Shown piece after piece: positions 55,645 through 58,588 of a stretch of DNA of 64,000 nt. The notes beneath the pieces were generated by a model. The model worked only from the letters and a program-made list of their open reading frames with translations, was not told the DNA's origin and searched no databases. A program made the position numbers and the translations under genes. The stretch is from Parahaliea maris (GTDB lineage Bacteria; Pseudomonadota; Gammaproteobacteria; Pseudomonadales; Halieaceae), in NCBI RefSeq assembly GCF_008064665.1, contig NZ_VRZA01000003.1, forward strand, positions 124,001 to 188,000. Reading direction: 5' to 3'. Position 1 is the stretch's first letter, and every line of letters starts with the position of its first letter.

Positions 55645-56307
55645 ATGATCCAGTTCGAGCGGGTCAGCAAGCGCTATGAAGAGGGCCACGACGCCCTTCG
55701 GGAAATCAGCCTTGAGATTGCCCGCGACGAGCTGGTGTTCCTGACCGGTCACTCCGGTGCCGGTAAAAGCACCTTGCTGCGCCTGATCATGCTCATGGAT
55801 CGACCGACCCGGGGCAAGGTGCGCGTGGATGGCCGGGATCTCTCCACCATCGGCTCCCGCGGGATCCCCCTGCACCGCCGGCAGATTGGTGTGGTGTTCC
55901 AGAACCATCAGCTGCTTTATGACCGCAACGTATTCGACAACGTGGCCCTGCCGCTGGTTATCGCCGGCTACGATCAGCGTGAAATCGGCCGCAGGGTGCG
56001 CGCCGCCCTGGACAAGGTAGGTCTGCTGGCGCGGGAGCGCGCCCTGCCAGTTACCCTGTCGGGCGGTGAGCAGCAGCGGGTCGGAATCGCCCGTGCCGTG
56101 GTGGGGCGGCCACGCATTCTGCTCGCCGACGAGCCTACCGGTAACCTGGACCCCAATCTCTCGGCGGAGATCATGTCCCTGTTCGAGGCGTTCAACCAGG
56201 TCGGGGTGACGGTGTTGATCGCCAGTCACGACCTGGCGCTGATCTCCCGCCTGCAACATCGCATCATTACCCTGCGGGATGGCCAGCTGATGGGAGGCGC
56301 CGCCTGA
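55645..56307 (+). CDS. ftsE: Cell division ATP-binding protein FtsE
   Basis: A 220-residue ABC ATPase working with FtsX to activate peptidoglycan hydrolases at the septum. Walker A is [15 protein letters not shown], the signature [16 protein letters not shown] and Walker [19 protein letters not shown] precedes ATG 55645. The stop overlaps the ftsX start (ATGA-type overlap, TGATG). Located after ftsY as in E. coli. Confidence 0.97.
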
Positions 56308-57275
56308 TGGCCGCCGGACCTGCCCCGCGCCGCGAGGGCGCCAGTGCCAGCCGTGCCCGCCTGGCGGACCGCTATCGGGCCTGGCGCGATCACCACAGCC
56401 TGTCTGCCGCCGACAGCCTGCGCCGGGTGTTGGCAAGCCCGGGTTCGAGCCTCCTCACCTGGCTGGTGATAGGGATTGCCATGGCCCTGCCCGCGGCACT
56501 GGGTATTGCACTGGACAACGCCCGCAACGTCAGTGGCAGCTGGGACAGTCCGGCCCAGATTTCCCTGTTCATGCAGGCCTCGGTGGACGAGGCAAGCGCT
56601 GCGGAATTACAGCAAAGCCTGTCGCTGCGCGGTGATGTTGAGAGCGCTCAGCTGATCCCGCGGGATGCCGCACTCAGGGAATTTGCCGAGCTCTCCGGGT
56701 TTGCGGATGTGGTGGCCAACCTGGACGAAAACCCGCTGCCCAACCTGGTGCTGGTCGTGCCGGCCGCGGGGGTGGATCCGGCGGTCCTGCGGGCCGAATT
56801 TGCCGACCTGGCGCAGGTGGATCAGGCGGTCCTCGACATGGCCTGGGTGCAGCGCCTGAACAATATCATGGAGCTGGGCCGGCGCCTGGTACTGGCCCTG
56901 GGCGGCCTGCTGGTCCTGGGGGTGGTGTTGATCCTGGGGAACACCATTCGCCTGGCCATCGAAAGCCGCCGCGACGAGATCGTCATTGTCAAACTGGTGG
57001 GCGGCAGCAATGCCTTCGTGCGCCGTCCCTTCCTCTATACCGGCCTCTGGTACGGGGTGGGTGGCGGGGCAGTCGCCGCATTGCTGGTCCTTGCGGCCCT
57101 GTATTTCCTCGATGGCCCGGTCAGCAACCTGGCCCGTCTCTATCAGAGCGGCTTTACGTTGCAGGGCATTGGCCTCATCGGCAGCCTGCAACTGGTGCTA
57201 CTCGGTGGCTTTCTGGGCCTGGCAGGTGCCTGGCTGGCGGTTTCACGGCACCTTGGAGCGATTGAACCCCGTTAG
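56307..57275 (+). CDS. ftsX: Cell division protein FtsX
   Basis: A 322-residue, four-helix membrane protein forming the FtsEX complex. The N-terminal cytoplasmic tail is basic. The first helix (LLTWLVIGIAMALPAALGIA) is followed by a periplasmic domain (WDSPAQISLFMQASVDEASA, and later residues about 80-180), then GRRLVLALGGLLVLGVVLIL and the last two helices near 255 and 290. The extracellular domain should contact a hydrolase activator. The start overlaps ftsE. Confidence 0.95.
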   Translation: MAAGPAPRREGASASRARLADRYRAWRDHHSLSAADSLRRVLASPGSSLLTWLVIGIAMALPAALGIALDNARNVSGSWDSPAQISLFMQASVDEASAAELQQSLSLRGDVESAQLIPRDAALREFAELSGFADVVANLDENPLPNLVLVVPAAGVDPAVLRAEFADLAQVDQAVLDMAWVQRLNNIMELGRRLVLALGGLLVLGVVLILGNTIRLAIESRRDEIVIVKLVGGSNAFVRRPFLYTGLWYGVGGGAVAALLVLAALYFLDGPVSNLARLYQSGFTLQGIGLIGSLQLVLLGGFLGLAGAWLAVSRHLGAIEPR

Positions 57276-57351
57276 TTGTATTTGGTCCAAGTGCTTGAAA
57301 TGTAACAATTACTTCATGAATCTTTTGCTTGGCGCGGGAACTTTTCCGCGA

Positions 57352-57378
57352 TTAGCACTCTAATAGCATGAGTGCTAA
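57352..57378 (+). promoter_or_regulatory. CIRCE element (HrcA operator) upstream of rpoH
   Basis: A perfect match to the CIRCE inverted repeat: TTAGCACTC, 9-bp spacer, GAGTGCTAA. It ends 29 bp before the rpoH start codon. A CTTGAAA sequence (57294-57300) upstream could be part of a heat-shock or housekeeping -35. HrcA bound here should repress rpoH transcription at normal temperature. The sequence match is direct; the regulation is inferred from the known HrcA-CIRCE system. Confidence 0.9.
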
Positions 57379-57407
57379 ACTTGGCACCTGACATGGAGAA
57401 CCCTCAG

Positions 57408-58265
57408 ATGAACAATACCCTCAAGCCTGTCGACCAGATGGTGCCGGGCGCCAACCTTGCGGCCTACGTGAATGCCGTGAGCAGTATCCCGCTGCTGAGT
57501 GCAGAGCGGGAGCGGGAATTGGCCGAGGACCTGTACTACAACGACAACCTCGAGGCGGCGCGTGAGCTGGTGATGTCACACCTGCGCTTCGTGGTGCACA
57601 TTGCCCGCAGCTATAACGGCTATGGCCTGGCCGAGGCTGACCTGATCCAGGAAGGCAACGTGGGCCTGATGAAGGCCGTCAAACGCTTTAACCCCGAGAA
57701 GGGGGTGCGCCTCGTCTCTTTTGCCGTGCACTGGATCAAGGCCGAGATGCACGAGTTCATCCTGCGCAACTGGCGCATTGTGAAAGTGGCCACTACCAAG
57801 GCCCAGCGCAAGCTCTTCTTCAACCTGCGCGGTGCCAAGAAAAGCCTGGCCTGGCTGACAGCTGAGGAAACCGAAGCGGTGGCGGCCGACCTCGGCGTTG
57901 ACGTCACTGAAGTGCAGCGCATGGAAGGGCGTCTGAGTAGCCGCGACGTGGCCTTTGATGCTCCCACCGATACCAGCGATGACGAGGATGCCTGGCAGGC
58001 ACCCCAGTACTACCTGGAGGACAAGCGCTACGACCCCGCCGTGGAGGTGGAGTCCAGCGAATACCAGGAAAACAGCGAAGCGGCCTTGCACAGTGCCCTG
58101 TCGGACCTGGACGAGCGCAGCCGCGATATCCTGGCCCAGCGCTGGCTGGCGGAGGAGAAGGCTACCCTGCACGAACTGGCTGACAAGTACGGCGTGTCCG
58201 CCGAGCGTATCCGCCAGCTCGAACAGAACGCGATGAAGAAACTGCGCACCGCCATCGCCGCCTGA
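57408..58265 (+). CDS. rpoH: RNA polymerase heat-shock sigma factor RpoH (sigma-32)
   Basis: A 285-residue sigma-32. Marks are [21 protein letters not shown], the core-binding region [40 protein letters not shown], the RpoH box region [20 protein letters not shown] and region 4.2 [23 protein letters not shown] 57408 has GGAGAA seven bases upstream and gives nearly the E. coli length; starts at 57372 and 57393 are less well placed. A CIRCE operator lies in the leader, and a terminator follows at 58290-58313. Confidence 0.97.
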
Positions 58266-58320: not shown

Positions 58321-58588
58321 AGGGCCTGGTCAGGCTATTTGAGTGACCGTCGCTGGACGCCATTTTCCCGCCCAGCGAGGCAGAAGGAGAGTGATGTAGT
58401 GGTGCTACATGATCGACTGATAACGAAGCTGGGCGGGAAAATGGCACCAGCCCTGCGGGTTGCTCCTGAACAAGTGCCACTCAGCGTTGCTCCTCGCTCA
58501 TTTGGAATGACCAAATCACGCTCGTCGCGCCTCGATTGGCACTTGTTCAGGCGCAACGCCGGCCACTCAAATAGCCTGACCAGGCCCT
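58321..58588. repeat. 268-bp multi-hairpin element with 25-bp terminal inverted repeats
   Basis: Terminal arms 58321-58345 and 58564-58588 are perfect 25-bp inverted copies. Inside lie two further long hairpins in series: 18-bp perfect arms 58359-58376/58428-58445, which enclose ATGTAG/CTACAT (58394-58399/58405-58410), and 20-of-21-bp arms 58459-58479/58537-58557, which enclose ATTTGG/CCAAAT (58500-58505/58511-58516). The single strand would fold as a three-way cruciform. There is no transposase or convincing coding frame and no target duplication seen. It is probably a MITE- or REP-type repeat. Confidence 0.85.

Follow-up and report, generated by a model that had tools for sequence, protein, structure and literature searches.

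A perfect CIRCE operator ahead of rpoH in Parahaliea maris and the sigma-E-type promoter it appears to overlap

HrcA and its operator CIRCE (controlling inverted repeat of chaperone expression) usually control the groESL or dnaK operons, so that the finding of such an operator ahead of rpoH, which encodes the heat-shock sigma factor sigma-32, raises the question of what HrcA might be doing there. The case in point lies in a 64 kb stretch of the genome of Parahaliea maris (hereafter, the window), where TTAGCACTC-TAATAGCAT-GAGTGCTAA forms an exact inverted repeat on the forward strand at 57352-57378 (left arm 57352-57360, spacer 57361-57369, right arm 57370-57378), with no mismatch to the CIRCE consensus TTAGCACTC-N9-GAGTGCTAA as printed in PMC545781. 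This predicted HrcA binding site is the only CIRCE match in the window at up to three mismatches, and 100 dinucleotide shuffles of the window contain none. It ends 29 bp before the rpoH ATG at 57408, and the first-pass annotation, which had claimed both an exact CIRCE and this distance, is borne out on the two counts. The same annotation had identified the downstream gene (57408-58265, forward strand) as rpoH, and its 285 amino acids product indeed exceeds the curated cut-offs of TIGR02392 (393.4 bits against 323.1) and NF005143 (423.3 bits against 241).

The answer that we consider likely, judging from sequence, is that rpoH is transcribed from a sigma-E promoter into which an HrcA operator is built, and that HrcA would block this transcription until GroEL is titrated.

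The register of promoter and operator

Promoters of sigma-E (RpoE) follow the consensus GGAACTT, 15-16 nucleotides, TCNNA. The sequence GGAACTT-N15-TCTAA upstream of rpoH matches it, with a putative -35 element GGAACTT at 57337-57343 (forward strand, recognized by eye and by its conserved register), 8 nucleotides upstream of the CIRCE, and, 15 nucleotides after it, a putative -10 element TCTAA at 57359-57363, whose TC closes the CIRCE left arm and whose other three bases begin the spacer, the third of them being a conserved A. Judging from the usual distance between a sigma-E -10 element and its start site, transcription would begin at 57369-57371, inside the CIRCE itself. We take the C of this TC, a base of the CIRCE arm, to be the cytosine discussed in passages of PMC8103513. 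The overlap with a sigma-E-type promoter was overlooked in the first-pass annotation, and the arrangement is common across the class, not particular to this genome.

Register was scored as a sigma-E -35 heptamer (up to two mismatches, with its AAC core) standing 8, 9 or 10 nucleotides 5′ of the CIRCE, in a set of 123 rpoH CIRCEs with up to three mismatches. The -35 is in register at 91 of the 123, as opposed to 1 of 40 other CIRCEs, for which either orientation was allowed (p = 7e-17). These controls are a hand-picked part of the listed non-rpoH sites, 20 of them from relatives and 20 from class genomes, and their neighbours are GroES in 36 cases, HrcA in three and neither in one (at a contig end), RpoH being the neighbour of none. 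In the class sample alone, 63 of 94 rpoH CIRCEs have the -35 in register, and 58 of these 63 have an A as the third spacer base, which would be the conserved A of the -10 element; the same base is A in 13 of the 31 out-of-register class sites and in 8 of 80 control orientations (the 40 sites read both ways). In a minority (e.g., G038, G088, G096, G174, G176 and G076) the -35 lies 23-25 nucleotides upstream of the CIRCE, which would place the -10 right beside the operator, with no overlap. Whichever the arrangement, the promoter core would lie beneath bound HrcA or next to it.

Other searches point the same way. With the pattern GGAACTT (up to two mismatches), N14-17, TCNNA, a sigma-E-like promoter is found in 94 of the 118 rpoH upstream regions that have a CIRCE and come from genomes with hrcA, where mononucleotide shuffles lead to an expectation of 8.0. 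When the species-genome collection was scanned for exact matches to the composite GAACTT-N7..9-TTAGCACTCTAA-N6-GAGTGC, at least 117 loci emerged, and RpoH lies directly downstream in 114 of the 117 listed; in the remaining three (L104, L105 and L129) the sequence ends 43-106 bases past the match start. Halieaceae, Woeseiaceae, Granulosicoccaceae, Arenicellales, Methylobacter, Rhodocyclaceae, Sulfurisoma and other Betaproteobacteria are among the matches listed, and the closest RpoH among them is that of Parahaliea aestuarii (L075), with 94.4% identity.

Co-occurrence of the rpoH CIRCE with hrcA

Searching the whole assembly (4.85 Mb, 98.8% complete) for hrcA, as had been recommended, reveals a single copy (TIGR00331, 323.9 bits against a cut-off of 197.2), which precedes grpE and dnaK (both named by eye), and the same genome has an rpoE (TIGR02939, 311.8 bits against 236.15). 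CIRCE occurs at two places genome-wide at up to three mismatches, both with no mismatch at all: one is the rpoH site and the other stands before groES (NF001527, over cut-off), followed by groEL (named by eye). As a control, the pattern read backwards occurs at four places in this genome at up to three mismatches and at none at up to two, and in the class sample at one place each in 4 of 140 genomes at up to two. Of the further places where a search for copies had been suggested, groES has a CIRCE, and hrcA-grpE-dnaK shows none at up to three mismatches. Since the operator is confined to these two places, the predicted HrcA regulon of this genome would consist of groESL and rpoH. Upstream of groESL (L002:1474-1560) a sigma-70-like TTGACG-N16-TAGAAT runs into the CIRCE, and just 3′ of the operator lies a sigma-32-like CTTGAAA-N12-CCCCAAT (both by eye), because of which RpoH might in turn drive groESL. 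The hrcA-grpE-dnaK cluster also carries two palindromes on GGGGTCAGAGCCCTTTTT, one 5′ of hrcA and the other between grpE and dnaK (L003:1350-1397 and L003:3280-3358), which resemble a mobile repeat family; the window has no copy of them at up to two mismatches.

Conservation of the rpoH site was studied in 167 rpoH upstream regions of 166 genomes. These comprise 37 of 38 relatives, Parahaliea maris itself included (G023, whose rpoH starts at a contig edge, was left out), and 129 of 139 other genomes of the class, one per family, in which RpoH was matched with an E-value of at most 1e-55; the class genomes counted as having hrcA include four with partial matches below the cut-off. The rpoH CIRCE, at up to two mismatches, is present in 28 of 28 relatives with hrcA versus 1 of 9 without it (Fisher p = 2e-7), and in 85 of 98 class genomes with hrcA versus 3 of 31 without it (Fisher p = 3e-15), the tests ignoring relatedness, save that the class genomes were taken one per family. 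No CIRCE at up to three mismatches emerged in 3340 mononucleotide shuffles of the upstream regions. The repeat is therefore kept in relatives, where a check of its conservation had been suggested, and well beyond them. In one genome (G085, L179) an additional right half-site (GAGTGCTAA) lies 3′ of the rpoH CIRCE.

Eleven of the 35 regions that lack CIRCE (more than three mismatches) and come from genomes without hrcA have a sigma-E-like promoter, as compared to 3.0 expected from mononucleotide shuffles. Ten regions from genomes without hrcA were scored for remnants of the arms: G025 and G104 retain six of the seven left-arm bases, G033 and G039 four, and the remaining six between none and two, which is thin support for a decay of the CIRCE after the loss of hrcA.

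The predicted circuit and its rivals

The first-pass annotation had proposed that the operator places the positive heat-shock regulator under a negative one. Given the presence of hrcA and the conservation of the rpoH repeat among relatives and beyond them, such a cascade, in which the repressor HrcA acts above the activator RpoH, with HrcA binding as predicted, is the best reading of the locus, though the proposal was incomplete. As the CIRCE overlaps the putative sigma-E -10 element, the circuit would join sigma-E, HrcA/GroEL and RpoH. Envelope stress would free sigma-E, whose holoenzyme would recognize GGAACTT-N15-TCTAA and transcribe rpoH. As long as free GroEL is sufficient, HrcA would occupy the CIRCE and keep the sigma-E polymerase from reaching the -10 and the start site. 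Misfolded cytoplasmic proteins occupying GroEL would leave HrcA inactive, and rpoH and groESL would be released together; RpoH would then lift the chaperones, GroEL would be restored and HrcA would shut both promoters again. Transcription of rpoH would be expected where free sigma-E coincides with a shortage of GroEL, and GroEL would close the feedback. What we observe directly are the sequence elements, the register that they prefer, how they are conserved and their co-occurrence with hrcA; we infer that HrcA binds, that the sigma-E promoter is used, that GroEL controls HrcA and how strong the effect is. On the third of these, HrcA of Helicobacter pylori binds with the support of GroE, matching B. 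subtilis and Chlamydia trachomatis, according to passages of PMC6032397.

Several observations weigh against this circuit. The -35 is not in register at 32 of the 123 rpoH CIRCEs, about a quarter of them, and the one control in register is a CIRCE before hrcA (L322). No CIRCE at up to four mismatches is found in 9 of the 127 upstream regions from genomes with hrcA (G134, G067, G171, G099, G168, G061, G141, G071 and G048), although G134 has a variant of CIRCE with an 8-nucleotide spacer and G067 has two rpoH copies (L176 and L213), only one of which lacks the operator; five further such regions (G154, G144, G094, G075 and G114) match at three mismatches only. Inversely, 4 of 40 regions from genomes without hrcA have a CIRCE at up to two mismatches (G148, G026, which is 75% complete, G155 and G051), and G102 has one at three. 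Transcription from the upstream neighbour ftsX (56307-57275, forward strand; TIGR00439, 314.9 bits against a cut-off of 255) may also read through into rpoH and feed it. Finally, RpoH in E. coli is controlled mainly after transcription, through translation and protein stability, and the quantitative effect of the rpoH CIRCE could, for this reason, be small.

Some of these points would suit an explanation in which HrcA does repress rpoH, either at some other promoter or by halting polymerases that read through from ftsX, and the likeness to a sigma-E promoter is secondary. The CIRCEs out of register agree with it, as does the lack of any terminator in a scan of 57200-57450. On the other hand, the register and the -10 adenine, frequent at rpoH, are rare at other CIRCEs, and the candidate sigma-70 promoter for rpoH had to be rejected, since the sole sigma-70-like match in 57200-57450 overlaps the start codon. 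We consider this explanation unlikely.

Much less probable still is that the inverted repeat is a hairpin in the mRNA, acting on its stability or translation, rather than DNA for HrcA to bind. The closeness of the repeat to the start codon would suit such a role; however, the predicted sigma-E start falls inside the repeat, and so the transcript would carry the right arm alone. For the predicted leader together with the first part of the coding RNA (57370-57640), the fold is no better than that of shuffles (z = -0.61), and an Rfam search of 57200-57800 gave no match; these two results speak neither for nor against a translational control like that of E. coli. Furthermore, it is the sequence itself that is kept, beyond mere pairing, and it tracks hrcA. 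As for a chance inverted repeat or a functionless fossil, the persistence of CIRCE in a few genomes without hrcA is what could be said for it, but with none expected from shuffles and conservation in 85 of 98 families with hrcA its probability is close to nil.

The sigma-E promoter with its embedded HrcA operator thus stays as the reading that we favour.

Relation to known heat-shock control

The likely ribosome-binding site of rpoH is GGAG at 57395-57398 (forward strand, by eye), which fits the ATG at 57408, whereas none is evident for another in-frame ATG, at 57393 (by eye). The order ftsX-rpoH is identical in E. coli K-12. Downstream of rpoH the window has a perfect 18-bp inverted repeat (GCCATTTTCCCGCCCAGC) at 58359-58445, with arms 51 bp apart, followed at 58459-58557 by a second, 24-bp inverted repeat (92%), whose arms are also 51 bp apart.

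Gene order is not all that is shared with E. coli, as the promoter type is too: rpoH P3 of E. coli is RpoE-dependent, according to passages of PMC8103513 and PMC2909356, and we find TGAACTT-N16-TCTGA beginning 121 nucleotides before its ATG. The CIRCE, in contrast, is absent from the E. coli site, the best fit in 360 bases having seven mismatches, and the profile search, with E. coli among its 14 control genomes, matched rpoE there and gave no match to hrcA. With the HrcA/CIRCE control of groESL, a class I heat-shock operon, the Parahaliea rpoH site shares the operator sequence, which this genome also has at groESL; it differs in lying at the gene of a positive regulator, and the promoter that HrcA would cover is of the sigma-E type, not sigma-70-like.

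Among the closest known arrangements is that of the delta-proteobacterium Geobacter sulfurreducens, which likewise has a perfect CIRCE just ahead of rpoH (at -51) and another before groESL (Rodionov et al. 2004, PMC545781, Table 8), and is the only genome with an rpoH site in that table. Its hrcA-grpE-dnaK-dnaJ carries a CIRCE, unlike the Parahaliea cluster, and the passages of PMC545781 that concern it make no mention of a sigma-E promoter at its rpoH. Searches of the open-licence literature gave no report of CIRCE or HrcA at rpoH of beta- or gamma-proteobacteria, or of an overlap with a sigma-E promoter, though the 2003 survey of these groups by Permina and Gelfand, to which passages of PMC545781 credit their search profiles, may list such sites and is most likely the earlier source for them, if there is one.

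We lean slightly towards the view that, in beta- and gamma-proteobacteria, rpoH was ancestrally controlled by a sigma-E promoter that had an HrcA operator embedded in it, and that the P3 promoter and mainly post-transcriptional control of E. coli would derive from this state after the loss of hrcA. E. coli, this suggests, may have lost a transcriptional brake and come to rely on translation and protein stability instead. In Parahaliea, negative control by HrcA, as in Bacillus, and control of the E. coli type seem to stand in series: HrcA, reporting on free GroEL, would gate sigma-32 production at a promoter of the envelope-stress sigma factor. This suggests that in many beta- and gamma-proteobacteria two separate stress sensors would act together in turning on the master heat-shock regulator, by a two-input logic of envelope stress and GroEL shortage that is open to testing.
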